Of a stretch of 64,000 nt of DNA, positions 12,135-41,817 are shown one piece after another (positions within the stretch are counted from its first letter, which is position 1; each line of letters starts with the position of its first letter). The notes beneath the pieces were generated by a model that had not been told where the DNA came from, did not search any database, and saw only the letters and a program-made list of their open reading frames with translations. Origin of the DNA: Microbacterium immunditiarum (GTDB taxonomy: Bacteria > Actinomycetota > Actinomycetes > Actinomycetales > Microbacteriaceae); the NCBI RefSeq assembly GCF_013409785.1, contig NZ_JACCBV010000001.1, positions 3,348,001 to 3,412,000 on the forward strand. Direction: 5' to 3'. A program made the translations under genes and the position numbers.

Positions 12135-13247
12135 GTGAGTGTTCGACCCCCGTACCGCGCCGATGTCGTCGGCAGCTTCCTCCGTCCCCCCGCCGTCGCC
12201 GAGGCGCGCGCCCGTCACCACGCCGGCGAGCTCGACGACGACGGCCTCCGCGCCGTCGAAGACGCCGCGATCGTCGACCTCGTGCAGAAGGAGGCCGACG
12301 CCGGCCTCGAGCTCGCGACCGACGGCGAGTTCCGCCGCTCGTGGTGGCACTTCGACTTCTTCGGTCTGCTCGACGGCGTCGACATCGTCGAGCTCGATCA
12401 CGGCATTCAGTTCCAGGGCGTGCAGACGCGCCCGCGCGGCATCGAGATCTCCAGCAGGATCGGCTTCAGCGACACGCATCCGTTCCTCGAGCACTTCCGC
12501 GCCCTGCAGGAGGACGTGAAGGCGACCGGCGCTCGGCCGAAGTTCACGATCCCGTCACCGACCGTGCTCGACTTCCGCCTCGAGCCCGGCCACATCGACC
12601 CCGCCGTCTACGACGGCCGCGAGGCGATCGTCGACGACCTCGTGCAGGCGTACCGCGACGCCGTGCACGCCTTCTACGACGCCGGCGCCCGCTACCTGCA
12701 GTTCGACGACACCGCGTGGGCGTACCTGTGCTCCGACGTCGAGCTCGAGAAGGCGTCCGAGCGGGGGATCGACACGAACGGCATCGCCGAACGCTACGCG
12801 GCGCTGCTGAACCGCATCCTCGACGGCAAGCCCGACGACCTCGTCGTGACGACGCACGTGTGCCGCGGTAACTTCCGCTCGACGTGGATCTCGTCGGGCG
12901 GCTACGAGCCGGTCGCCGAGCAGCTGCTGGGTGTCACGAACTACGACGGCTACTTCCTCGAGTACGACACCGACCGCGCGGGCGGCTTCGAGCCGCTGCG
13001 CTTCCTCCCGAAGGGCGACAAGACCGTCGTGCTCGGGCTCATCACGTCGAAGACGGGCGACCTCGAGGACCCGGACGACGTCAAGCGGCGCATCGATGAG
13101 GCGACGGCCTTCGCTCCGCTCGAGCAGCTCGCGCTGAGCCCGCAGTGCGGCTTCGCCTCGACCGAGGAGGGAAACATCCTCACCGAGGACCAGCAGTGGG
13201 CCAAGGTGCGTACGGTCGTCGACATCGCCCGCGACGTCTGGGGCTGA
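12135..13247 (+). CDS. MetE-like (cobalamin-independent) methyltransferase, short form
   Basis: The 370-residue product is the catalytic half of cobalamin-independent methionine synthase without the N-terminal domain, like Bacillus YxjG/YxjH. Zinc ligands are readable: His and Cys in TTHVCRGN and a second Cys in SPQCGFAST. 'YLQFDDTAWAYLC' corresponds to the substrate-binding strand of MetE. It should transfer a methyl group to homocysteine or a similar thiol; the donor used by short forms is not settled. It starts at GTG 12135. Its position just before a set of LigM-type demethylases, which produce methyl-tetrahydrofolate, is suggestive but unproven. A strong hairpin follows. Confidence 0.85.
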   Translation: MSVRPPYRADVVGSFLRPPAVAEARARHHAGELDDDGLRAVEDAAIVDLVQKEADAGLELATDGEFRRSWWHFDFFGLLDGVDIVELDHGIQFQGVQTRPRGIEISSRIGFSDTHPFLEHFRALQEDVKATGARPKFTIPSPTVLDFRLEPGHIDPAVYDGREAIVDDLVQAYRDAVHAFYDAGARYLQFDDTAWAYLCSDVELEKASERGIDTNGIAERYAALLNRILDGKPDDLVVTTHVCRGNFRSTWISSGGYEPVAEQLLGVTNYDGYFLEYDTDRAGGFEPLRFLPKGDKTVVLGLITSKTGDLEDPDDVKRRIDEATAFAPLEQLALSPQCGFASTEEGNILTEDQQWAKVRTVVDIARDVWG

Positions 13248-13415: not shown

Positions 13416-14444
13416 CTACTCGGAGCGCTCGTCCTTCTCGGGCTTCTTGTACGCTTCACCGCGCATCGCGGCGGCGTCGATCTCCTCCTGGTTCTCGACG
13501 AACGGCGTGCCGTGCGTGTGGAACGTCGGCACCGTCTTGGCGCCCCACGCCTGACCCTTCGCGCGCTCGGCCTGGCTCCACTCGACGACCGGCCAGTCCG
13601 GGTCGAGGATGAGCCGGGCGCCGGCGTTGGCAAGCTCGATGCGGTTTCCGCCCGGCTCCCACACGTAGATGAAGAACGTCTGGTTGATCGCGTGCTTGTA
13701 CGGGCCGAACTCGATGTGGATCTTGTTCTCGAGGAAGATGTCGGCCGCCTTGAGGATGTCCTCGCGCGTGTCGGGCGCGATCGCGAAGTGGTGGAAGCGC
13801 CCGCGCTCTCCTGTCCAGTCGTCCGAGTAGACGACGTCGTACGACTTCTGCTGGAAGCGGAACCACCACGCGCCGTACCCGCCGTCGTCGAGGCGCACAC
13901 GCTCAGACTCGCGCGACATCATGACGTCGCGCCAGAACTCGCCGGCGGCGTTGACGTCGCTCGCGAGGTAGTTGATGTGGTCCATGCGGCGCGCGTTCAC
14001 TCCGCGACCGGGGAACGCCGACGCCTGGTTCTTGAGCGCCGGGGTGTCCAGCTCGTCCGGCACGTAGTGCTCGGTGTCGTAGTACAGGCCCATGAGGTGC
14101 CCGTCCGGGTCCTCGAACTCGTAGGAGCGGCCGACGCCGACCTCGGGGTCGCGCCAGCCGTGGCCGAGGCCGGCCTTCTCGATCGCGGCGACCCGGCGCT
14201 CGAGCGCCTCGGGGCTCGTCGCGCGGAACAGCGTGCGGCCGACGCCGTTCGTGTCGGACGCGGTGAGCTTGAGCGTGTAGAGCTGGTACTCGTCCCAGCA
14301 CCGCAGGTACGAGGAGTCGCCGATGCGCGCGACCTCGCGCATCGCGAGGATGTCGCGGAAGAAGTGCAGGCTCTCCTCGAACTTCGGGGTGAACAGCTCG
14401 ATGCCGCCCAGGTGGGCGAGATCGAAGTTCTCATGACTGGCCAT
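13416..14444 (-). CDS. VOC-family extradiol ring-cleavage dioxygenase (catechol 2,3-dioxygenase type)
   Basis: The 342-residue product has two paired VOC modules: residues about 8-125 (LAHLGGIELFTPKFEESLHF) and about 152-275. The 2-His-1-Glu iron site of type I extradiol dioxygenases is intact: H156 (RMDHINYL), H218/H219 (GRFHHFAI) and E270 (GGNRIELANAGARL). The C-terminal tail 'ERAKGQAWGAKTVPTFHTHG' matches catechol 2,3-dioxygenases. It cleaves a catechol ring next to the diol using O2 and Fe(II) or Mn(II). It is the last gene of a four-gene run with GalB-, GalC- and GalD-type enzymes, which act on 4-oxalomesaconate. The likely substrate is therefore gallate, or possibly 3-O-methylgallate or protocatechuate, rather than catechol. 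The substrate is inferred; the fold and metal site are seen. Confidence 0.88.
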   Translation of the reverse strand: MASHENFDLAHLGGIELFTPKFEESLHFFRDILAMREVARIGDSSYLRCWDEYQLYTLKLTASDTNGVGRTLFRATSPEALERRVAAIEKAGLGHGWRDPEVGVGRSYEFEDPDGHLMGLYYDTEHYVPDELDTPALKNQASAFPGRGVNARRMDHINYLASDVNAAGEFWRDVMMSRESERVRLDDGGYGAWWFRFQQKSYDVVYSDDWTGERGRFHHFAIAPDTREDILKAADIFLENKIHIEFGPYKHAINQTFFIYVWEPGGNRIELANAGARLILDPDWPVVEWSQAERAKGQAWGAKTVPTFHTHGTPFVENQEEIDAAAMRGEAYKKPEKDERSE

Positions 14445-14470
14445 GATCGTGTCCTCTCTGACGCGGGGCT

Positions 14471-15544
14471 TTAGAGACGAGGTCGCGCGAACGCGACCCC
14501 GTCGAAGAGCTTTCGGGCGGTGCGCACCGAGGTCGACGTGCCGTGCCACACGCCGTCGGCGTCCTGCGCGACGTGTACGGCCGAGGCGAGCACGCCCGTC
14601 GGGTGCTCGATGTCGCTCGGACCCTGGGCGCGCACGCGGGCGAAGTCGGAGCCGACGGCTCCCGGGATGCGGACGCCGGCGGCGACGGATGCCGCCATCA
14701 GCACGCCCAGCGCGGTGTGCACGCGCTTCGGGATGAACGCCCGCGTCGACACGACACCGCCGTTGCGGGGCGGCGACACGAGGATCATCTTCGGAACGGT
14801 CTGGTCGGCGACGTCGCCGAACCCGAACAGGGGGCCGGCGGCCAGGCGCACGCGCTCGACGGCGGTCGCGAGATCGGGACGGGACTCGAGCTCGGCGGGC
14901 GACTCGTCGCCGGCGACTCCGAAGTCCTCGGCCCGCAGCAGCACGACCGGCATGCCGTTGTCGACGAGCGTCGCCGCGTGGCCGTCGAGCTCGTCCGTCG
15001 GGTTGCCGGTCGGCAGGAGGGGCTTGTCTGCGGCGCCGAGCTCGAGCTCGATGCGCGCGGCGGTGCCCGGAACACCGTCGATCGCCTCGTCGCCGTCGTA
15101 GTCGGGCCGGCCGCCGGGCGTCGCGAACACGGCGGTCGCGATATCTCCGGTGTTGACGAGACGGATGCGCACCGTGGTCGCCTCGTCGACCGCGGGGACG
15201 AGGCCGCGCTCGACCGCGAACGGTCCGATGCCCGCGAGCAGGTTGCCGCACGTCTGCCTCGTGCTCACGGTCGGCTCGTCGACACCGATCTGCAGGAAGA
15301 GGTAGTCCACATCGATGCCGGGCTCGGTCGAACGCGACACGACCGCCACCTTCGACGTGAGCGGATGCGCGCCACCCAGCCCGTCGATCTGACGCGGGTC
15401 GGGGCTGCCCATGATCCGCAGGAGCAGCTCGTCGCGGGCATCCGGATCTTCGGGCAGATCGTCGGCGACGAAGTACGCGCCCTTCGACGTCCCGCCGCGC
15501 ATGAGCATGCAGCGGACGCCGTCGCGGACCGGGTCAGCGACCAC
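14471..15544 (-). CDS. galD: 4-oxalomesaconate tautomerase (PrpF/GalD family)
   Basis: The 357-residue protein belongs to the PrpF family (diaminopimelate-epimerase fold). It begins 'VRCMLMRGGTSKGAYFVADD', the conserved opening of GalD and PrpF, and contains QTCGNLLAGIGPFAVERG and 'GVLASAVHVAQDADG'. In GalD the paired catalytic residues convert the keto tautomer of 4-oxalomesaconate to the enol form that the hydratase accepts. PrpF proteins isomerise aconitates, so annotation as a generic isomerase is the alternative. The neighbouring hydratase and aldolase favour GalD. It starts at GTG 15544, overlapping the aldolase gene by 11 bases, and ends 26 bases before the dioxygenase start. Confidence 0.87.
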   Translation of the reverse strand: MVADPVRDGVRCMLMRGGTSKGAYFVADDLPEDPDARDELLLRIMGSPDPRQIDGLGGAHPLTSKVAVVSRSTEPGIDVDYLFLQIGVDEPTVSTRQTCGNLLAGIGPFAVERGLVPAVDEATTVRIRLVNTGDIATAVFATPGGRPDYDGDEAIDGVPGTAARIELELGAADKPLLPTGNPTDELDGHAATLVDNGMPVVLLRAEDFGVAGDESPAELESRPDLATAVERVRLAAGPLFGFGDVADQTVPKMILVSPPRNGGVVSTRAFIPKRVHTALGVLMAASVAAGVRIPGAVGSDFARVRAQGPSDIEHPTGVLASAVHVAQDADGVWHGTSTSVRTARKLFDGVAFARPRL

Positions 15545-16244
15545 GCTCGTACTCCTCCTGCGTCACGAATGCCACGCCGAGGCTTTCGAGTACCGGACGC
15601 AGATCGTTGATGTCCATCGAGATCTCGCCCGCCTCGTACCGCTTGCGGTTGCGGGCCTCGCGCTCGGCACGGGCGCGCGATGCCTCGAGCGCCTCGTCCG
15701 CGCGGCGCCGGGGAACGATCGTCACACCGTCGTCGTCCGCGACGACGACATCGCCCGGGTTGACCACGACGCCGTCGAGGACGACCGGCACGTTGACCGA
15801 GCCGGCGGTGTCCTTCACCGTTCCCTGCGAGCTCACATGCGCCGTCCACACCGGGAAGCCCATCGCGCGCAGCTCGCCCGTATCGCGCACCCCGCCGGAC
15901 GTCACGTACGCGCGTACGCCCCGGACCTGCATCTGGGTCGCCATCAGCTCGCCGATGAACCCGAACGCCGAGTCGGTCGTGGGCACGACGACGATGACGT
16001 CGCCGTCCTGCGCCTGCTCGATCGCGGCGTGCACCATGAGGTTGTCGCCGGGAGCGGTCGACACAGTGATCGCCGAGCCCGCGATGGCCGCGCCCTGCTG
16101 AATGGGACGGATGCGCGGACCCGCGTAGCCGACTCGGCCCATCGCCTCGTGCACCGTCGCCGAGCCGAACGCGGCGAGCGCGTCGACGACATCGCGGTCG
16201 GCTCGCGCGATGTCGGTGACGACGACCGGCCCGGGAACGCTCAT
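15534..16244 (-). CDS. galC: 4-carboxy-4-hydroxy-2-oxoadipate aldolase / oxaloacetate decarboxylase (RraA-like, LigK/GalC type)
   Basis: The product is 236 residues, the length of the LigK/GalC/ProA class II aldolases. The active-site loop 'GVRAYVTSGGVRDTGELRAM' contains R120 and D121, equivalent to the Arg-Asp pair that binds pyruvate and the metal in the Pseudomonas enzyme. GELMATQMQVRG precedes it. It splits 4-carboxy-4-hydroxy-2-oxoadipate into pyruvate and oxaloacetate and usually also decarboxylates oxaloacetate. RraA proper is shorter (about 160 residues) and lacks the extra C-terminal helices seen here. It is coupled to galB by an ATGA overlap. Confidence 0.9.
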   Translation of the reverse strand: MSVPGPVVVTDIARADRDVVDALAAFGSATVHEAMGRVGYAGPRIRPIQQGAAIAGSAITVSTAPGDNLMVHAAIEQAQDGDVIVVVPTTDSAFGFIGELMATQMQVRGVRAYVTSGGVRDTGELRAMGFPVWTAHVSSQGTVKDTAGSVNVPVVLDGVVVNPGDVVVADDDGVTIVPRRRADEALEASRARAEREARNRKRYEAGEISMDINDLRPVLESLGVAFVTQEEYERGR

Positions 16245-16996
16245 TGCAGGACGCCCGTCACTTGCGGGAAGTACCGCACGTAGGCCTCGCCCATCGTGTC
16301 GTGCGGCAGGCCGAGGTTGGGCCCCGCGTTGCGCTTGACCTGCACGCCGCGGCGGATCGCGAGCTGCGTGTAGTACTCCCACATGTGCTTCTGCGCGGGA
16401 AGGCACTCCATCGCCTTGCGCTTGAGCGGGAAGGCATCCGTGATGTCGAGCAGCACGTTCGGCTTGAAGTCGCTCTGCTCGGGTTGGTGGGGCTCGAAGA
16501 AGAAGACGGGCGGGGCGCCGATGATGTCGTCCTTCGTCGGGAAGGAGCCGTCGCTGTTCGCGACGCCGATCGCCTGCGCGAGCACGCGCGCCTGAAGCGC
16601 CATGCGCGCAGCGGCCGGGTGGTCTCCGTTGTAAGGGTCGGCGAGTGGGTGCGTCAGCACGACGGTCGGCTGCACGCGACGGCAGACGTCCACAAGCTTC
16701 GCGACGGCCTGCTCGGACTCGACGAGCGGGTAGTCACCCAGGTCGAGGAACTCGATCTCGGCGCCGAGAGCGGATGCCGCGGCCTCCGCCTCCTCGCGGC
16801 GGATCGCCTTGATCTCGTCGAGCGGCTTGCCGGCGAGCCACTGGCTGGCGGATTCGCCGCGCTCGCCGAATGACAGGCACACCACGACCGCACGCTCGCC
16901 GCGCATCGTCGCGGCCGCGATCGCGCCTCCGGCGCGCCATACGAAGTCTCCGGCGTGGGCGCTGACGACCAAGAGCGTGTTCGGATTCTCTGCCAA
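16241..16996 (-). CDS. galB: 4-oxalomesaconate hydratase (PIG-L/LmbE-like, GalB type)
   Basis: The 251-residue product belongs to the PIG-L/LmbE fold but has 'LLVVSAHAGDFVWRAGGAIA' at the first zinc motif in place of the usual AHPDDE. This is the variant of Pseudomonas putida GalB, a zinc-dependent 4-oxalomesaconate hydratase. Further matches are CLSFGERGESASQWL and 'VLTHPLADPYNGDHPAAARM', with His residues that fit the metal site. It adds water to enol-oxalomesaconate to give 4-carboxy-4-hydroxy-2-oxoadipate. TTG 16996 is preceded by AGAGGAG at the right distance; reading further upstream gives only low-complexity residues. It is the first gene of the minus-strand block and diverges from LigM-1. 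Confidence 0.88.
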   Translation of the reverse strand: MAENPNTLLVVSAHAGDFVWRAGGAIAAATMRGERAVVVCLSFGERGESASQWLAGKPLDEIKAIRREEAEAAASALGAEIEFLDLGDYPLVESEQAVAKLVDVCRRVQPTVVLTHPLADPYNGDHPAAARMALQARVLAQAIGVANSDGSFPTKDDIIGAPPVFFFEPHQPEQSDFKPNVLLDITDAFPLKRKAMECLPAQKHMWEYYTQLAIRRGVQVKRNAGPNLGLPHDTMGEAYVRYFPQVTGVLQ

Positions 16997-18629
<1,633 letters not shown>

Positions 18630-18818: not shown

Positions 18819-20436
18819 ATGGGTGTGAAAAGAAGACTGTTGAGTTGTGCGGCGACGATGGCCCTCGCGGTGGCGAGCCTCACGTTCGTCGCCGGCGGAT
18901 CCGCCGCGGGCGACCAAGGATCGGCGGCCAAGGGGCCGGCGACCCCGGGTGATCCCGTGCGGAGCTGCGAAAGCCTCATGAACGTGGACCTCGGTCCGAA
19001 CACCGTGATCGAGTCCGCCGTCCAGCACGCGGCGACCGCAACGACACCCGCGTCGTGCCGGGTGCAGCTGTACACCACGCATCCGCCGGCCGGCGATGAG
19101 GTGACGATCTGGATCGCCCTTCCCACAACCGGCTGGAACGGTCGATTCCTGGGAGTCGGCGGCGGCGGATTCACAGGCGGGACGCCGGGATCGGTCGTCG
19201 CGCCGCTCGGTCAGGGGTTCGCGGCGGGTGCGACGGATGCCGGCAACCCCACCGGCCAGGCCCAGACGATCGGCGCCAACCCCGACCTCACGCGCAACTG
19301 GGTGGGTCAGGAGAACTTCGGCCACCGCGGTATCCACGAGATGACGGTGAACGGCAAGGAGCTCGTCGCGGCGTACTACGGCCGGTCGCAGGACTACGCC
19401 TACTTCAGCGGATGCTCGACCGGAGGACGCCAGGGGATGATGGAGGCCCAGAAGTACCCCGACGACTACGACGGCATCTCGGCCGGCGCGCCGGTGTTCA
19501 ATTACGCGGAGCTCGCGATCGCGCAGCTGTGGAGCCAGATCGTCATGAAGGAGGAAGGCAACGTCCTCTCGCAATGCAAGTTCACCGCTGCGCTCGAGGC
19601 GGGTGATCGACGAGTGCGACCTGGTGGGTGACGGCGTCGCGGACGGAGTGATCGGCGATCCCCTCGCGTGCGACTTCGACTTCACGTCGCTCGTCGGACA
19701 GGTGACGCCGTGCGGCGAGACCTTCACCGACGCGGATGCCGCGGTGCTTGAGAAGATCCGGCAAGGGCCACGTCGCACCAGCGGCGAGTTCCAGTGGTAC
19801 GGACTCGTGGAAGGTGCGCCGTATGCCGGCCTGAGCAACACCGCGCTCGTGAACGGCGAGCTCGTCGGGCAGCCGTTCCCCTTCGTCACCCTCGTGATCG
19901 CGTACTGGCTCGAGATGAACCCCGCGTGGGACTGGCGCACCGAGACGTACGAGAGCTTCGAGCAGCACATCGACCAGATGGTCGAGCTCTACGATGACGT
20001 CCACGGCGCCTCGGACCCCGACATCCGGGCGTTCCACGACAGCGGCGGGAAGCTCCTCGTGTGGCACGGCTGGAGCGACTTCGGCGTCTACGCGCAGGGC
20101 ACGCTCGACTGGTACGAGCGCGTGCAGGACATTCTCGGCCCGGGCAGGACGAAGCAGGCCGTCCGCGTGTTCCTCGCTCCCGGCGTCGACCACTGCGGCG
20201 GCGGCCCGGGGGCGCAGCCGACCGGCCAGCTCGAGGCGCTCATCGAGTGGGTCGAGAAGGGCCACGCCCCGAAGCAGCTGCTCGCCACGCGCGCCGAGGG
20301 TGGGTCGGTCGTCGCGACGCGCCCGATCTGCGACTACCCCACGGTCGCGAAGTACAAGGGCAGCGGCGACGTGAACGACGCGCAGCGGTACCGCTGCGTC
20401 CCGGCGGAGCAACTCACTCCGCGCATGGATCCCTGA
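18819..20436 (+). pseudogene. Secreted tannase/feruloyl esterase family protein, split by a one-base frameshift
   Basis: The two halves together (about 538 residues) form a complete tannase/feruloyl-esterase (Pfam Tannase type). A signal peptide (residues 1-30, MGVKRRLLSCAATMALAVAS) is followed by the nucleophile motif SGCSTGGRQGMM with S200. After the break come the acid in LVWHGWSDFG and the His in GVDHCGGGPG. These enzymes cleave galloyl or feruloyl esters outside the cell. The frame breaks at 19601-19603: removing one G turns EAGDRRVRP into EAVIDECDLVGDGVADGV, which fits the family's Cys-Asp calcium loop. The rest is intact, so the frameshift is recent or a sequencing error. A strong AAGGAG precedes ATG 18819. 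The promoter carries a LysR box shared with the adjacent lysR gene. Confidence 0.85.
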
Positions 20437-20531: not shown

Positions 20532-21488
20532 TCAGGAGCGGGGCGCCTCGGCGAACGCGTCGCCGTGGATGACGAAGAACTGGCCGGACGAGCCGGCGAC
20601 CGCGCGCGCGACGGTGTCGTAGAGCCAGTCGAGCGCGGCCGTGTGCTGTGTCGTCGACCGCCGATAGAGGAACACCCCGACAGGCGGCATCTCGAACGGC
20701 AGGGGGCGGACGACGAGCGGCCACGTGGACGCCCAGCCCTGGGCGATCGTGTCGGGTGCGGTCGCGATGAGGTCGCGGCTCGCCGCCAGAACCGGCGGCA
20801 GCGCCGTGATGTGGCGCAGCGCCACTTCGGGTTCGACCACGATGCCCGCCCGGCGCTCGGCGGCGGCGAGCATCGGGGCTCCCGAGTCGCCGCTCACGGT
20901 CGCGTGCGCTGCGGACACGTACGCGTCGAGGTCGAGGGTGCCTTCCGCGAGCGGGTGGCTCGCCGACATCACGACGGCGTAGGGCTGCGACTTGAGCTGA
21001 CTGCGGACGAATCGGCCGGGAACGCTCGCGGTCGTGATGGCGAGATCGACCGTGCCTCGCGACAGCCAGTCCGAGAGCGCGTCGACCTGGATGGGCACGA
21101 CTTCGAGGCGCATGTGCGGGGCGCGGGAGCGGATCGCCGAGAGGATCGCCGGCAGCCAGCCGATCTCTCCGAGCTCGGACAGCGCGATGCGGAACAGCCG
21201 CCGCGACGAGGACGGATCGAATCCGTGCACGGCGTCGATCGTGCGGTCGATGCCCTCGATCGCGTCGCGGAAGCCGGGGAACACGCTCTCGGCGAGGGGT
21301 GTCGGGCGCATGAGGCGGCCGTCGCGCTCGAAGAGCGGGTCGTCGAGCTCGCGCCGCAGTCTCGCGAGAGCCTGACTCACGGCGGGCTGGGTGACGTAGA
21401 GCCGACGGGCGGCGATCGTGAGGCTGCGCGACTCGTACACCGCCACGAAGACGCGCAGGAGGTTCAGGTCCACGGTCGGCCCGGGCAT
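20532..21488 (-). CDS. LysR family transcriptional regulator
   Basis: This is a 318-residue LysR regulator. The N-terminal winged helix (residues 4-62, 'VDLNLLRVFVAVYESRSLTI' then ARRLYVTQPAVSQALARLRREL) is followed by a two-lobed co-inducer domain of about 220 residues. ATG 21488 gives the standard start; an in-frame ATG at 21512 would add eight residues. It lies between the tannase and LigM-2, transcribed away from LigM-2, and near-identical palindromes stand in front of both targets. It is therefore probably an activator that senses gallate, a methoxybenzoate or a related acid (inference). Confidence 0.92.
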   Translation of the reverse strand: MPGPTVDLNLLRVFVAVYESRSLTIAARRLYVTQPAVSQALARLRRELDDPLFERDGRLMRPTPLAESVFPGFRDAIEGIDRTIDAVHGFDPSSSRRLFRIALSELGEIGWLPAILSAIRSRAPHMRLEVVPIQVDALSDWLSRGTVDLAITTASVPGRFVRSQLKSQPYAVVMSASHPLAEGTLDLDAYVSAAHATVSGDSGAPMLAAAERRAGIVVEPEVALRHITALPPVLAASRDLIATAPDTIAQGWASTWPLVVRPLPFEMPPVGVFLYRRSTTQHTAALDWLYDTVARAVAGSSGQFFVIHGDAFAEAPRS

Positions 21489-21596: not shown

Positions 21597-22955
21597 ATGA
21601 CCGAGTCCGTCGCCGACGCGATCGCACGCGCGGGAAGCGCCGTCGAACTCCTGCGCAACTCGCAGGCACGCCCGACGATCTTCCCGGTGACGCCCGAGTT
21701 CTCGAACTGGCGCACCGAGCAGCGCGCCTGGCGCGACACCGTCGCCCTGCTCGACCAGTCCCACCACATGACGGATCTGTTCATCTCGGGACCCGACGCG
21801 CTCAGGCTGCTCTCCGACACCGGGGTCAACAGCTTCGCCGACTTCGGCGTCGACTGTGCGAAGCAGTTCGTCGCGGTCAACCACGAGGGCTACCTCATCG
21901 GCGACGCGATCCTGTTCCACCTGGAGGAGGATGTGTTCGACCTCGTCGGCTGGTTCATGGTGCTCGACTGGGTGCAGTACATCGGCGAGACCGGCGACTA
22001 CGACGTGACGTTCGAGCGCGACGCGAACTCGCTCATGCGCGAACCGGGCATCCCGCCGAAGCTCTACCGCTACGAGCTCCAGGGACCGAATGCCCTCGCG
22101 CTCATGGAGAAGGCCACCGGCGCCCCCGTGCCGACGACGAAGTTCTTCCACATGACGACGTTCGAGATCGATGGCCTCACGGTGCGGTCGCTGCGGCACG
22201 GCATGGCCGGGCAGCCAGGATTCGAGCTGTTCGGGCCGTGGGCCGACGGTGAGCGGGTGCGCGACGCGCTCATCCGCGCGGGAGAGGGGCTCGACCTCGT
22301 GCTCGTCGGAGCGAAGGCCTACTCGTCGGCGAACCTCGAGTCGGCGTGGGTGCCGTCCCCTCTGCCGGCGATCTTCTCGGGCAAGGGAACGGCGGATTAC
22401 CTCGCGTGGCTCCCCGCGAACCGCGCCGGCTCGCTCGCGGGCAGCTTCGTGTCGGACGACATCGAGGACTACTACCTCACTCCGTACGACCTCGGGTACG
22501 GACGCAGCGTCGCCTTCGATCACGACTTCATCGGGCGCGAGGCGCTCGAGCGCCACGCGCGGGGGCCTCGGCGTACGAAGGTCACGCTCGTGTGGAACCC
22601 CGAGGACGTCGCCGCGGTCCAGCGCTCGATGTACGAGCCCGGGCTGCCCGCCAAGTACCTCGACTTCCCGAAATCCCGGTATGGCACGTACCAGGTCGAC
22701 CGCGTACTCGCGGACGGCGTCGACGCCGGCATCTCGCACGATGTCGGCTACATCACCGGAGAGCAGGTGTTCGTGTCGCTCGCGAGCGTCGACGCCGCGC
22801 ACGCCGGGCCCGGGACCGAGGTCGTCGTGGTGTGGGGCGAGGAGCCGAACACGAGCAAGCCCGCCGTCGAGGCGCACCGCCAGGTCGAGGTGCGCGCGAC
22901 GGTCGCACCGGCGCCGTACTCGTCGTTCGCACGGGAGAACTACCGGAAGAACTGA
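21597..22955 (+). CDS. LigM-like tetrahydrofolate-dependent aromatic O-demethylase (paralogue 2)
   Basis: The 452-residue GcvT-fold protein is the second LigM-like demethylase. The catalytic Tyr is kept (Y242 in AKAYSSANLESAW), but the Arg of LigM position 122 is Trp here (W119 in DLVGWFMVLDW). It therefore probably binds a different substrate from paralogue 1, for example one lacking the usual carboxylate contact or with a second methoxy group such as syringate (inference). The ATG 21597 follows GAAGGAG. It is divergent from lysR with two LysR boxes between them, and convergent with marR at a gap of one base. Confidence 0.82.
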   Translation: MTESVADAIARAGSAVELLRNSQARPTIFPVTPEFSNWRTEQRAWRDTVALLDQSHHMTDLFISGPDALRLLSDTGVNSFADFGVDCAKQFVAVNHEGYLIGDAILFHLEEDVFDLVGWFMVLDWVQYIGETGDYDVTFERDANSLMREPGIPPKLYRYELQGPNALALMEKATGAPVPTTKFFHMTTFEIDGLTVRSLRHGMAGQPGFELFGPWADGERVRDALIRAGEGLDLVLVGAKAYSSANLESAWVPSPLPAIFSGKGTADYLAWLPANRAGSLAGSFVSDDIEDYYLTPYDLGYGRSVAFDHDFIGREALERHARGPRRTKVTLVWNPEDVAAVQRSMYEPGLPAKYLDFPKSRYGTYQVDRVLADGVDAGISHDVGYITGEQVFVSLASVDAAHAGPGTEVVVVWGEEPNTSKPAVEAHRQVEVRATVAPAPYSSFARENYRKN

Positions 22956-31448: not shown

Positions 31449-32549
31449 TCAGAGGAGGTGCTGCGTGGCCCGTCGGTACTGCACGGGCACGCCGACCAGA
31501 TTCTCGGCTCCGAGCTCTCGCTCGGCTCGGCGTGCCCAGTAGGCGTCCTGGAGAATCGCCCGACCGATGAAGACGAGGTCCGCGTTTCCGGATCGAAGGG
31601 CCTCGCACGCCTCGGACGTCGTTCTGACCCGCCCGACGGCGCTCGTGGCGATCCGCGCGCGACGGCGAACCTCTCCGGCCATGCCGAGGTGGTACAGGGG
31701 CTCCTCCGGGATGGCCTCGCCCGGGAGGATGCCGGAGCTCGTGCCGTCGATGAGATCGACGCCCTCGTCTCGCATCCAGGAAGCGACCTGGACGGTCTCA
31801 TCGAGGCTGATGCCCCCCGGCAGCCAGTCGATCATCGAAAGCCTGATGAACAGGGGCAGGTCGTCGGGCCACGCCTGCCTCATCGCTCTCGCGACGGCGA
31901 GGGGAAGCCGGGCGCGATTCTCGAGTGACCCGCCGTACCGATCCGTCCGGCGATTGGCCAGAGGAGAGAGGAACTGGTGCATGAGGTACCCATGTGCGAA
32001 GTGCCCCTCGAGCACGCGATATCCGGCCTCGTGAGCACGCCGCGCGGCCACGCTGAAGTCGGAGACGATCCCTTCGATATCCGATGTCGTCATGGCCGTG
32101 GGCAGGTGCCAGTCGGGCTTGAACGGCTCCGCCGACGGCGCGAGCACCTGCCCCCACGCCTCGCGCGGCAGAGGTCGATTGCCTTCCCACGGCCGCGTCC
32201 TCCCGCCCTTTCGACCCGCGTGCGCGATCTGGATGCCGGGGACGGCGCCGTGGGCGGCGACCGCGGCGGTCAGCCGCCGGTGCCCGTCGACGTGCTCGTC
32301 CGACCAGATGCCGAGATCCCCCGGCGTGATGCGTCCATCGGCGGACACCGCCGTCGCCTCGGTGAACACGAGACCCGTGCCGCCTGCGGCACGGCTCCCG
32401 AGGTGCACCACGTGCCAGTCCGTCGGACGCCCGTCGCCTCCGCTCGTGTACATGCACATCGGCGACATCACGATGCGATTGGGGATGGTCAGCCCGCGAA
32501 TCGTGAACGCCGAGAACAGTGTCTCGGCCCCGCCCGCGGAAGTGCTCAC
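31449..32549 (-). CDS. Old yellow enzyme family NADPH:flavin oxidoreductase (YqjM/NamA-like)
   Basis: The 366-residue FMN barrel has 'FTIRGLTIPNRIVMSPMCMY' at the N-terminus, the substrate-binding pair in IQIAHAGRKGG, and 'AHGYLMHQFLSPLANRRTDR' with the following YGGSLENRAR. These are hallmarks of the thermophilic-like OYE class. It reduces activated C=C bonds (enones, possibly unsaturated ring-derived acids) with NADPH. GTG 32549 forms a GTGA overlap with the stop of the SnoaL-like gene, fixing the start. The two make a small operon that diverges from the ABC importer and shares its operator type. Confidence 0.9.
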   Translation of the reverse strand: MSTSAGGAETLFSAFTIRGLTIPNRIVMSPMCMYTSGGDGRPTDWHVVHLGSRAAGGTGLVFTEATAVSADGRITPGDLGIWSDEHVDGHRRLTAAVAAHGAVPGIQIAHAGRKGGRTRPWEGNRPLPREAWGQVLAPSAEPFKPDWHLPTAMTTSDIEGIVSDFSVAARRAHEAGYRVLEGHFAHGYLMHQFLSPLANRRTDRYGGSLENRARLPLAVARAMRQAWPDDLPLFIRLSMIDWLPGGISLDETVQVASWMRDEGVDLIDGTSSGILPGEAIPEEPLYHLGMAGEVRRRARIATSAVGRVRTTSEACEALRSGNADLVFIGRAILQDAYWARRAERELGAENLVGVPVQYRRATQHLL

Positions 32550-33115
32550 CGCGGGCGCGAGAGTCGAGTGCCGAACGAGAAGTCGGCCACGTCCTGCGGC
32601 CCCCAGGCGAGCGGGCGTCGATACGAGACGTCTCGCGCGTCCCATTCGCCTCGCGCGTAGGTCGCCAGCGTCCCCTTGGCGTCGGCGCCCTCCTTCGCCT
32701 CCGCTGTCCAGTCGACCGTCACCACGCGTTCGACGATGCCCCAGCGGCCGCCGCGGCGCTCGAGCCGATCGACGTAGCGCCCTCCGCTGATGTCGACGAT
32801 CGGCTCCGTCCGTCGCCAGAGGACGAACAGCACGTACGACTCCGAGTGGGCCACGTCTCCGTCGATCTCGACGGTCGTGTTGCAGATGAAGTGCTGGTGT
32901 CCTCGGGTGTGCGTCGCATGCAGGTCGTTGCCCCACGCGGAGAGCTCCGAGGGCCGGCGAGCCGCACCGCCGTGGTGGTCGATGCCGTCCTCGTGGAACG
33001 CGCTCTCGATCAGCGCTGAGTCGTGCCGGTCGATGCCCCGGGCGTAGCGCATCACGCACTTCTCGATGGCGCGCTCGTCCAAGAGCTGCTGGATGTCTGC
33101 GTCGGAGATTGACAT
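32546..33115 (-). CDS. SnoaL/NTF2-like protein
   Basis: The 189-residue protein has the cone-shaped NTF2/SnoaL fold pattern: an N-terminal helix pair (DIQQLLDERAIEKCVMRYAR, then GIDRHDSALIESAFHEDG) followed by a curved sheet (HFICNTTVEIDGDVAHSESY). Family members include polyketide cyclases, dehydratases, isomerases and small subunits of ring-hydroxylating dioxygenases. His and Asp in GIDRHD and DGIDHHGG could form an acid-base pair. The specific reaction is unknown. ATG 33115 follows AGGACGACGA. It is the first gene of the SnoaL-OYE operon. Confidence 0.8.
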   Translation of the reverse strand: MSISDADIQQLLDERAIEKCVMRYARGIDRHDSALIESAFHEDGIDHHGGAARRPSELSAWGNDLHATHTRGHQHFICNTTVEIDGDVAHSESYVLFVLWRRTEPIVDISGGRYVDRLERRGGRWGIVERVVTVDWTAEAKEGADAKGTLATYARGEWDARDVSYRRPLAWGPQDVADFSFGTRLSRPR

Positions 33116-36286: not shown

Positions 36287-37072
36287 TCAGGAGTCGGCGC
36301 TGCCGCCCTCGGCGACGATGCGCTCGAACCATGCGAGCGTCGCGCGGGTCATGTCGTCGGGCACGGCGAGCGCCGCGAGCTCTTCGAGGGCGTCGCGCAC
36401 CTCGATCTCGCGCCGCACGGCGTGGCGGTAGGTGCCGTCGATGAGCCGCTCGACGAGGTCGCGTCCGCCTGGGCCGAGCTCGTGCGCGAGCTGGTCGCGC
36501 ATCCAGTCCTCGGCTCCGGCCGCGCGCGCGGCGCCGACGCTCTCGAGGATGAGCGTCGCGAGCCCCTTCATGAAGACCGTCCGCAGCAGCTTCAGTCGCG
36601 CCGCCTCCCCCGCCTCTCCCGCCACCACCTCGACCGGGACCCCCAGGGGCGTCACGCGCTCCGCGAAGCGCCGTGCACCGTCGCCGCTCGCGAGGAGGCG
36701 GGTTCGGTGGCCTGCTCGCGGCACGGGCGCGAGCACCGCGACATCCGCCATCGGCACGCGCCGCTTGCCGGCGATCGCCGCGATGCGACGCTTCACGTCG
36801 GGTGCCGCCGTGTTGAGGTCGGCGAACACGGTCTGGGCGCCGGCCGTCACGAGCGCGTCGCGCGCGACCTCCTCGGCGGCCGGAGCGCCGACGAGGCTCA
36901 GCACGACGTCGGCGCCGTCGACGGCCTCGGCGACGGATGCCACCTGAGCGACCCCCGCGCCGGCGAGGTCGAGCGATGGGTCGTACCCGCGGATCACCGC
37001 ACCCGCGTCGCGCAGCCCCGTCGCGTACAGTCGTCCGGCCTCGCCGAGGCCCAGGATCGCGATCGTCGTCAT
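36287..37072 (-). CDS. 6-phosphogluconate dehydrogenase-like NAD(P)-binding protein (DUF1932)
   Basis: The 261-residue protein has a Rossmann start (MTTIAILGLGEAGRLYATGL), the substrate-side sequence 'ADVAVLAPVPRAGHRTRLLA' and an all-helical C-terminal DUF1932-type domain with 'KLLRTVFMKGLATLILE', where the Lys is the usual catalytic position in this superfamily. Relatives oxidise 3-hydroxy acids or similar compounds; this branch has no established substrate. It lies 13 bases downstream of an IclR regulator, which probably controls it. ATG 37072 is clear. Confidence 0.82.
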   Translation of the reverse strand: MTTIAILGLGEAGRLYATGLRDAGAVIRGYDPSLDLAGAGVAQVASVAEAVDGADVVLSLVGAPAAEEVARDALVTAGAQTVFADLNTAAPDVKRRIAAIAGKRRVPMADVAVLAPVPRAGHRTRLLASGDGARRFAERVTPLGVPVEVVAGEAGEAARLKLLRTVFMKGLATLILESVGAARAAGAEDWMRDQLAHELGPGGRDLVERLIDGTYRHAVRREIEVRDALEELAALAVPDDMTRATLAWFERIVAEGGSADS

Positions 37073-40434: not shown

Positions 40435-41817
40435 TCAGGCCGTCGCGTACTCCTTCGCGCGGTACACCGTACGTGCGAACTCGTGGTAGGGCGCCGGCGC
40501 GACGGTCGCGCGGATCCGGACCTGCCGGTGGTTCGTGTCGACGGCCGCCTTCTTCGAGATCGGGTCCTCACCCCAGACCACCTCGACCTCGGCGCCATCG
40601 GGGACGACGACGTCGATCGTCGCGAGCGACATGTACAACTGGTCGTACGCGATGTATCCGGCATCCGTCGAGATGCCGACGCGCTCTCCGTCCTTCAGGA
40701 CTTCGTCCATCTGGTACAGGCCGTAGCGGGCCTTGGGGAAGTCGAGGAACTTCGCGGGCGTGCCCGGCTCGAGCTGGGAGCGGACGACGGATGCCACGTC
40801 CTCCGAGTTCCACAGCAGCGTGACCTTGCGGCGGCGCTGGTTCCCGGCGTGCTTCTCGAGCGCCTCGCGACCGTGGAAGTCGTGGTCGAAGCGCACAGAC
40901 TTGCCCAGGCCCAGGTCGTACGGGGTCATGTAGAAGTCGTGGATGTCGGTCGAGTACAGCGATCCGCCGATCGAACCGGCCCGAGCGGCGGGCAGCCACT
41001 CGCGGTACTCCGCGAAATCGTCGTCGAAGATCGCGGGGAACGGCGTCGGCACCCAGCCGGACTCGAGCGGGGTCGCGGAGTACGCCTTCGCGCCCACGCG
41101 ACGGATGCCGTGCTCGGCATCGGCCTCCATGATCGCCGCGAGGACGGCCTCGTTGTCCTCCCACGGACCGTAGAACTCGAATCCGGGCTGGCCCGCCATG
41201 CCGTGGCGGAGCGCCCTGACCGGGCGGCCGGCGATCTCGACGTCGCCGATATGGAAGAACTTGATGTCGGGCGCGGGGCCCCCGAACACCTTCTCCATCA
41301 CGTCGTTCGCGTGCGGGCCCTGCAGCTCGTACCGGTAGAACGTGGGCGGGCCCTGCCGCATGTGCGAGTTCGCCTCGAGGCGGTGGTGCACGTCCTTGCC
41401 GGCGGCCTCGGCTTTCTCGGCGTTGAACCGCACCCAGTCGATGAGCAGGTGGTGCCCGATGAGGACGAGCCCCTCTGGGCCCTCGGAGTTGTAGAACAGG
41501 ATCCCGTCCCCGATGAGGTACCCGTCCTTGTTGACAGAGATGAGCTGCTTGGCGACGCCCGGACGGAACGTCGCGAACGTGTTCGGCGAGATGCTCGAGA
41601 GCATCGCGATGAGGTCCGCGCCGTGCAGGAACAGCTGGGTCATGTGGTGCGACTGGTCCATGAGCGCGACCGTCGTGTTCCACGCGCGCTGCTCGTCGCG
41701 CCAGTTCGTGAACTCGGGCGCGACCGGGAACGTGAACGCGGGCCAGTCCTGGTTCCGCAGCAGCTCCACGGGGCTGCCGACGCGGGCGATCGCCTGAGCG
41801 AGTGACTCGGTAGTCAT
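40435..41817 (-). CDS. LigM-like tetrahydrofolate-dependent aromatic O-demethylase (paralogue 3)
   Basis: The 460-residue GcvT-fold protein is the third LigM-like demethylase. The catalytic Tyr is kept (Y246 in AKAYSATPLESGW). The residue at the LigM Arg122 position is His (H122 in LVLIGHHLLIDW), against Arg in paralogue 1 and Trp in paralogue 2. It is closer to paralogue 2 in its N-terminal third (RDEQRAW, LMDQSHHMTQLF). It probably demethylates another methoxylated benzoate, or accepts substrates of another shape (inference). It starts at ATG 41817 and diverges from the Liv-type importer operon, a natural partner for substrate uptake. Confidence 0.83.
   Translation of the reverse strand: MTTESLAQAIARVGSPVELLRNQDWPAFTFPVAPEFTNWRDEQRAWNTTVALMDQSHHMTQLFLHGADLIAMLSSISPNTFATFRPGVAKQLISVNKDGYLIGDGILFYNSEGPEGLVLIGHHLLIDWVRFNAEKAEAAGKDVHHRLEANSHMRQGPPTFYRYELQGPHANDVMEKVFGGPAPDIKFFHIGDVEIAGRPVRALRHGMAGQPGFEFYGPWEDNEAVLAAIMEADAEHGIRRVGAKAYSATPLESGWVPTPFPAIFDDDFAEYREWLPAARAGSIGGSLYSTDIHDFYMTPYDLGLGKSVRFDHDFHGREALEKHAGNQRRRKVTLLWNSEDVASVVRSQLEPGTPAKFLDFPKARYGLYQMDEVLKDGERVGISTDAGYIAYDQLYMSLATIDVVVPDGAEVEVVWGEDPISKKAAVDTNHRQVRIRATVAPAPYHEFARTVYRAKEYATA

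Follow-up and report, generated by a model that had tools for sequence, protein, structure and literature searches.

A VOC-family (type I) extradiol dioxygenase predicted to cleave gallate in a GalBCD gene block of Microbacterium immunditiarum

The closest described systems, GalA of Pseudomonas putida KT2440 and DesB of Sphingobium SYK-6, convert gallate to 4-oxalomesaconate (OMA), which then passes through GalD, GalB and GalC. DesB, LigAB and DesZ are type II extradiol dioxygenases (PMC3962378), gallate and methylgallate dioxygenases are assigned to the LigB superfamily (PMC4250580), the actinobacterial PcaA is type II (PMC8431788), and MgaA and MgaB resemble GalA and LigAB (PMC12314914). According to the same sources, LigAB, DesZ, MgaAB and PcaA also feed the OMA pathway, from protocatechuate, 3-O-methylgallate (3MGA) or gallate, again with type II or GalA/LigAB-like enzymes (PMC3962378, PMC12314914, PMC8431788). 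Here we describe a four-gene block of Microbacterium immunditiarum in which GalB-, GalC- and GalD-type genes are joined by the gene of a VOC (type I) extradiol dioxygenase, for which the same reaction as that of GalA and DesB is predicted. The block lies in a stretch of 64,000 nucleotides (the window; C1:3348001-3412000 of a 3.9-Mb genome, on one contig). An extradiol dioxygenase feeding GalBCD is already known; the predicted pairing of a type I fold with gallate cleavage would be new.

Judged from its sequence and its setting, the VOC protein is very probably a type I extradiol enzyme that acts as a gallate dioxygenase, and the best reading makes it a non-orthologous counterpart of GalA and DesB that would give OMA. 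An earlier examination of the letters of this DNA (the original prediction) had reported four tightly spaced genes of GalB, GalC, GalD and dioxygenase type, and had taken direct conversion of gallate to OMA as the simplest explanation. The layout is borne out by coordinates, overlaps and gap, family and structure scans agree on the three Gal-type names, and the proposed reaction gains inferential support from context, absent alternatives and residues. On the minus strand the order is galB (16241..17002), galC (15534..16244), galD (14471..15544) and the VOC gene (13416..14444, 342 aa), with operon-like spacing: overlaps of 4 and 11 bases among galB, galC and galD, and a gap of 26 bases between galD and the VOC gene. 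The GalD-like OMA tautomerase, of the PrpF family, scores 443 bits against NF033377 (cut-off 440), and its best Protein Data Bank (PDB) match is 6p3j, a (4E)-oxalomesaconate Delta-isomerase (E 5.4e-107). The GalC/LigK-like 4-carboxy-4-hydroxy-2-oxoadipate (CHA) aldolase, of the RraA family, passes NF006731 (293.6 bits, cut-off 179), stays under a second aldolase model (TIGR02798, 272.9 vs 304.5) and matches 3noj (E 4.2e-69). The GalB-like hydratase of OMA/2-keto-4-carboxy-3-hexenedioate (KCH) has the PIG-L fold (PF02585), and its nearest solved structure is 5cgz, a 4-oxalmesaconate hydratase (250 bits, E 2.5e-73); no hydratase-specific model was matched in the libraries scanned, and the name comes from the Pfam fold and this structure. 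The tautomerase, hydratase and aldolase of the GalBCD lower pathway are thus all present.

PF00903 is the sole Pfam family found in the VOC protein (54 bits, cut-off 20.6). The Pfam scan gave no PF02900 (LigB) domain, unlike GalA and DesB, which the cited sources place in type II and the LigB superfamily, and an AlphaFold2 model is closest to type I dioxygenases when compared with the PDB. The term 'convergent', used in the original prediction, follows from this unrelated fold. The best NCBIfam match is the catechol 2,3-dioxygenase model TIGR03211 (283.3 bits, below its cut-off of 320.2), and the homoprotocatechuate dioxygenase model TIGR02295 gives 167.9 bits, also below its cut-off (321.4). 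As to the enzyme type being undescribed, we found no earlier description of a type I (VOC) gallate dioxygenase in the open-licence PMC literature, searched mostly through titles and abstract openings and with preprints outside its scope, which makes this weak evidence; the portion of AromaDeg available to us lists substrates of VOC-type enzymes without gallate. Among named loci, the nearest found belong to Microbacterium (92% identity). In the public records consulted, the relatives are labelled catechol 2,3-dioxygenase, bphC or VOC family protein.

The linkage between the VOC gene and the OMA pathway holds beyond the genus. Relatives gathered by VOC similarity comprised 29 named loci, 15 genus loci at about 70% identity, another 40 stretches obtained by searching the genus, order and phylum, and 16 plasmid regions chosen for organism variety rather than at random (the listing of one, H47, already showed the aldolase). 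Five near-identical loci (L008, L120, L175, L179 and L194) were removed and loci of at most 4.1 kb were excluded, G094 and G098 being counted in the genus tallies only, which gave 90 loci with at least 50% identity, window included. Two loci at 44-50% identity, one of which has the aldolase-hydratase pair, stand outside both counts; of the 10 loci below 44%, nine were found by VOC similarity and L125 by a LigB match. Queries of LigJ, LigI and LigAB type were taken from locus L121, and their names were checked against 2gwg (4-oxalomesaconate hydratase, 559 bits), 4d8l (2-pyrone-4,6-dicarboxylate (PDC) hydrolase, 363 bits) and NF009912 (protocatechuate 4,5-dioxygenase, 855.1 bits, cut-off 837), respectively. 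The LigC-type protein, which matched no LigC model, is so named from PF19858 with a Rossmann domain and from its position in the cluster.

A CHA aldolase together with an OMA hydratase (GalB or LigJ) lies near the VOC gene in 76 of the 90 loci; singly, the aldolase was found in 80, the hydratase in 77 and the tautomerase in 71, and LigC in none, LigI in four and LigAB in two. Below 44% identity the hydratase is absent from all 10 loci, and there is one weak aldolase-family and one weak LigAB match. Linked loci span Actinomycetota, Proteobacteria and Thermus (Deinococcota). Some lineages have GalB as the hydratase; in others, among them Citricoccus, Rothia, Kocuria, Brevibacterium and Corynebacterium (loci L004, L014-L017, L019, L021, L022, L026, L029 and further ones), the unrelated LigJ takes its place, and this interchange indicates that a shared intermediate is conserved rather than a frozen gene block. 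On the Agrobacterium plasmid pAt the genes for the PIG-L protein, VOC protein, aldolase, OMA tautomerase and tannase are consecutive, on a Paracoccaceae plasmid the annotated order is galB, bphC, galC, galD, interrupted by one small gene, and in Thermus oshimai the VOC, PIG-L and aldolase genes fall within 4 kb. The 38% identical relative in Thermus thermophilus has catechol-type neighbours (dmpG, acetaldehyde dehydrogenase).

Some further features of these loci were recorded. In 8 of the 90 loci (L166-L171, L173 and L203) a DUF6282 gene is found no more than 9 kb from the VOC gene (detected by Pfam PF19799 in L173 and L203 and by tblastn in the remaining six), and these are exactly the eight that have GalB and GalC without GalD; DUF6282 is a candidate for a non-orthologous replacement OMA tautomerase. 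Separately, the VOC protein has matches (E <= 1e-40) in 23 Agrobacterium plasmid records, L066 among them, and many of these come from walnut, which produces gallic acid (PMC7943615).

Alignment to homoprotocatechuate 2,3-dioxygenase (HPCD) and its metal ligands places the metal triad of the window protein at His156, His219 and Glu270. The intact His/His/Glu site proposed earlier therefore stands, and of the two histidines then left as alternatives the ligand is His219, not His218. The triad is kept in all 77 rows of the alignment with the aldolase-hydratase context and, among the matches listed, in 120/120 close ones. Position 202 is Tyr in the window protein, where HPCD (His200 in its own numbering) and AphC have the acid-base His. 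Tyr202 occurs in 76/77 context-positive rows and in the 14 rows with at least 50% identity but no pair; it is also found in 14/14 Geobacillus-type rows (12 Bacillota, 2 Ktedonobacteria), and the 13 remaining rows have His. Position 277, seven residues past the Glu ligand, divides them differently: it is Arg or Lys in 77/77 context-positive rows and Arg in the 14 without the pair, but Tyr in AphC, HPCD and all 14 Geobacillus-type rows. The 11 context-negative rows that are left have Tyr (10) or Ile (1). Among the matches listed, Arg277 is present in 120/120 close to the window protein, and of 120 listed around the Geobacillus protein 114 have Tyr and 2 have Arg.

Among solved structures, the catechol dioxygenase of Geobacillus zalihae type (9wgj) has about half of its residues identical (by eye), the same metal triad and also Tyr202, but Tyr277 in place of Arg277. 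AphC, crystallised with an alkylcatechol (7q2a, with 4-ethylcatechol), has His202 and Tyr277, and 3lm4 from Rhodococcus RHA1 is identical to it in sequence across most of the aligned region. HPCD (1f1r, 1q0c) shares the type I fold and acts on a carboxylated catechol, but its carboxylate-binding arginines, 243 and 293, are not conserved and align with Phe246 and Gly297 of the window enzyme.

The placement in a VOC tree that had been suggested as a check was carried out with a quick method without bootstraps, which leaves 31 of 115 inner branches open. Apart from L173, all rows with Arg277 (84) group on a single branch (SH-aLRT 98); the six Lys277 rows and L173 fall outside it, and the fewest changes that explain the basic residue are two. 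L173 is joined to L086 by long branches, a grouping that may be false. Because so few changes occurred at position 277, they offer little independent replication, and we treat the residue as a clue rather than as proof. We lean, by a modest margin, towards regarding the Arg/Lys277 clade as a second class of gallate dioxygenase that arose independently and is spread over Actinomycetota, Proteobacteria and Deinococcota, with Tyr in place of the acid-base His and a single basic residue reading the carboxylate. Two relatives at about 50% identity, L172 and L173, both have His202; L173 has GalB and GalC nearby and Arg277, and L172 has Tyr277 and none of the pathway genes within its short stretch.

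Within 119 genomes of the genus, the VOC protein (at least 70% identity) and the OMA tautomerase (at least 430 bits) are each found in 28. They occur together in 27, with the matches within 100 bp of each other in 27/27, and G082 has the VOC protein without a strong tautomerase match. LigB matches of at least 290 bits, LigC and strong LigI matches all belong to one set of 11 genomes; in addition there is a single weak LigI match. Five of the 11 LigB loci were inspected, including the locus that supplied the reference proteins, and all five contain LigJ-, LigK-, LigI-, LigAB- and LigC-type genes. Strong LigAB-type matches in the genus thus coincide with LigC and LigI, whereas the VOC block of the window has neither. 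Mutual exclusion of VOC and LigAB, which we considered, does not hold: only G082 is in both sets, an overlap of 1 vs 2.6 expected (28 x 11 / 119, plain arithmetic). Since the exclusion fails, it is the positive association of VOC and GalD that we use as evidence.

The other ring-cleavage routes of the same genome were also surveyed. A genome-wide LigB search, called for in the original prediction, returned a single match, an MhpB-like protein (NF009909 355.6 bits, cut-off 286) whose gene at C1:1817842 is the only PF02900 match of the genome and lies beside an alpha/beta hydrolase gene (by sequence). It found no LigB-type gallate or protocatechuate 4,5-dioxygenase, and a hidden LigB-type gallate dioxygenase was rejected on this result. 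Neither LigC nor LigI, said earlier to be missing, was matched genome-wide at E <= 1e-30 when the genus's own LigC- and LigI-type proteins served as queries, so that the LigC and LigI pair of the protocatechuate 4,5-cleavage pathway was not found. For protocatechuate the genome has PcaH (338.8 bits, cut-off 296.4), next to which lies a PcaB-like protein that stays under its cut-off (338.1 vs 355.75 bits). PcaHG of other species is reported to convert some gallate to PDC (PMC12481942); such a side route is possible in this genome and would stop at PDC, because LigI was not matched. Two further VOC matches are HpaD (432.4 bits, cut-off 321.4) and a catechol-type protein that stays below its cut-off, near a gene of the fumarylacetoacetate-hydrolase family. 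The VOC enzyme of the block is the only ring-cleavage candidate found with linkage to the OMA pathway.

The block is flanked by a divergently oriented ligM-like gene for a tetrahydrofolate-dependent vanillate/3MGA O-demethylase (17220..18629, plus strand, longest frame from 17163; NF047885 903.5 bits, cut-off 580), with PDB matches to the vanillate/3MGA O-demethylase 5tl4/5x1i (E 5e-216). Next on the plus strand is a tannase/feruloyl esterase family gene (PF07519, 18819..20436), split into two overlapping frames that hold PF07519 positions 1-180 (18819-19631) and 191-490 (19603-20436); the split near 19600 is a real frameshift or a sequence error. A tannase-family gene stands beside the block both here and on the Agrobacterium pAt. 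Further on are a LysR-type regulator (20532..21488, minus strand; PF00126 and PF03466, both above cut-off), for which no specific NCBIfam regulator model passed its cut-off, and a second LigM/DesA-like O-demethylase (21597..22955, plus strand), a candidate syringate demethylase that is under the cut-offs of both the DesA model (NF047633, 583.8 vs 800 bits) and the LigM model (515.0 vs 580). In SYK-6, DesA converts syringate to 3MGA and LigM then gives gallate (PMC6888825, PMC12314914), and in view of these roles we read the neighbourhood as a putative syringate/tannin-to-gallate island. A cobalamin-independent methionine-synthase-like protein on the other side (12135..13247, plus strand; NF005085 553.6 bits, cut-off 313), relatives of which lie near the block in many loci, is a candidate sink for the LigM-derived methyl group. 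The flanking LigM/DesA-like, tannase-family and methionine-synthase-like genes did not figure in the original prediction. More distant are a third LigM/DesA-like protein (40435..41817, minus strand; nearest model NF047633, 493.3 bits, below the cut-off of 800), a SnoaL_4 protein (32546-33115, minus strand; PF13577 68.1 bits, cut-off 24) and a DUF1932 dehydrogenase (36287-37066, minus strand; PF09130), 22 kb from the VOC gene. By tblastn, 39 of the 90 loci and 0 of the 10 controls have DUF1932 at a distance of up to 9 kb from the VOC gene (the assignment being made by PF09130 in 3 proteins scanned), and a DUF1932 gene is also present in the galB/galC/galD stretch of the genus genome G097 (L118).

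In the mechanism that we propose, the LigM/DesA-like demethylases would convert syringate to 3MGA and then gallate, or a tannase would release gallate from tannins. In the VOC enzyme, an Fe(II) or Mn(II) ion with His156, His219 and Glu270 as its ligands would chelate the 3,4-diol of gallate. Tyr202 occupies the position at which known type I enzymes have their acid-base His; by alignment, Arg277 (Lys in one lineage) is the leading candidate to bind the carboxylate of gallate. Cleavage of the C4-C5 bond would yield OMA directly, since C5 bears a hydroxyl, and OMA would be tautomerised by GalD, hydrated by GalB and split by GalC into pyruvate and oxaloacetate.

The chief rival, which we regard as unlikely, is that the VOC enzyme is mainly a 3MGA dioxygenase and that LigM serves vanillate. 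Modelled on Pseudomonas NGC7 or the sphingomonads, this route would open 3MGA to 4-carboxy-2-hydroxy-6-methoxy-6-oxohexa-2,4-dienoate (CHMOD), which is hydrolysed to 4-carboxy-2-hydroxymuconate (CHMA)/OMA or closes to PDC, to be opened by LigI. It agrees with the position of LigM next to the block and with the loci L015, L017, L029 and L063 (Roseomonas), which have LigI without LigC, a combination that fits PDC derived from 3MGA rather than from protocatechuate. NGC7 itself pairs a putative 3MGA dioxygenase with GalD, GalB and GalC, and its putative CHMA tautomerase MgaD shares a Pfam family with the SnoaL_4 protein of the window (PMC12314914). However, LigI is unmatched in the genome and near only 4/90 loci, LigM strips the very methyl group of 3MGA, and the loci of Agrobacterium, Roseibium, Paracoccaceae, Rhizobium Q54 and Thioclava combine the VOC gene and galBCD with no LigM within the fetched stretch.

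The remaining alternatives appear far less probable. The annotation of relatives as catechol 2,3-dioxygenase or bphC, TIGR03211 as best model and the deposition of 9wgj as a catechol dioxygenase would agree with an ordinary catechol 2,3-dioxygenase lying by chance beside gallate genes. The TIGR03211 score is nevertheless under its cut-off, OMA-pathway linkage recurs in 76 of 90 loci across three phyla, and Arg/Lys277 sets the clade apart from the Geobacillus-type and AphC-type enzymes, the T. thermophilus relative with catechol-type genes having Tyr277; we reject a plain catechol enzyme, a very improbable reading, on genomic context and residue 277. A VOC-type protocatechuate 4,5-dioxygenase, hardly probable at all, would use the identical lower pathway after OMA, and LigM also makes protocatechuate from vanillate. 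That route, however, requires LigC and LigI, of which LigC is near none of the 90 loci and neither is matched in the genome (E <= 1e-30); in the genus, LigC with strong LigI is confined to the 11 LigAB-type genomes, one of which has the VOC protein, and PcaH is over its cut-off in the window's genome. It was rejected for want of LigC and LigI. Equally slight is the chance that another trihydroxylated acid or a pyrogallol-type compound is cleaved, with OMA-like intermediates at the end, a reading that could accommodate the in-clade Enterobacterales loci L205, L210 and L211, where GalB, GalC, GalD and LigJ are missing nearby, but the tautomerase passes an OMA-specific model, and both LigM and the tannase-family gene suggest gallate.

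Several observations weigh against the assignment of gallate cleavage to the VOC enzyme. The pair of aldolase and hydratase is not linked in 14 of the 90 loci, some of them on short contigs, and in the three Enterobacterales loci, which are on plasmids, GalB, GalC, GalD and LigJ are absent within 6 kb. Counting in favour of the assignment, in all seven searched VOC genomes without the linked pair (those of L005, L006, its near-copy L008, L009, L018 (G082), L184 (G633) and L185 (G674)), an aldolase adjoins GalB or LigJ elsewhere in the genome, with the unlinked aldolase of G633 and G674 under the model cut-off. G097 has galBCD with neither a VOC match (E <= 1e-40) nor a LigB match (E <= 1e-5). 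LigAB accompanies the VOC gene in four other genomes (G082, G794, G795 and G797, which include those of L005, L006 and L008), and in a fifth, G796 (L009), the LigJ, LigK and LigI neighbours of LigAB are present and the stretch ends before LigAB; the role of the VOC enzyme may therefore be narrower there. The nearest solved structure, 9wgj, which has the sequence of the Geobacillus zalihae protein, entered the PDB as a catechol dioxygenase. With Tyr in place of the usual acid-base His, the enzyme may not turn over efficiently, and the SnoaL_4 protein, of the Pfam family of the putative CHMA tautomerase MgaD, is present about 18 kb from the block.

Gallate is the junction of tannin and syringyl-lignin breakdown, and the opening of its ring is the committed step. 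The gene arrangement described here recurs in other bacterial phyla, and the family of its predicted gallate-cleaving enzyme differs from those of the gallate-cleaving enzymes described in the literature searched. Genome surveys based on LigB would miss this pathway, because the named ring-opening enzymes (GalA, DesB, LigAB, DesZ and MgaAB) are LigB-type or similar according to the sources cited. GalA is reported to be inhibited by 3MGA (PMC12481942). If our prediction is true, the VOC enzyme would represent a single-gene alternative to GalA for lignin engineering, and having this reaction on a second fold would offer a natural way to probe what type I enzymes need their catalytic His for.

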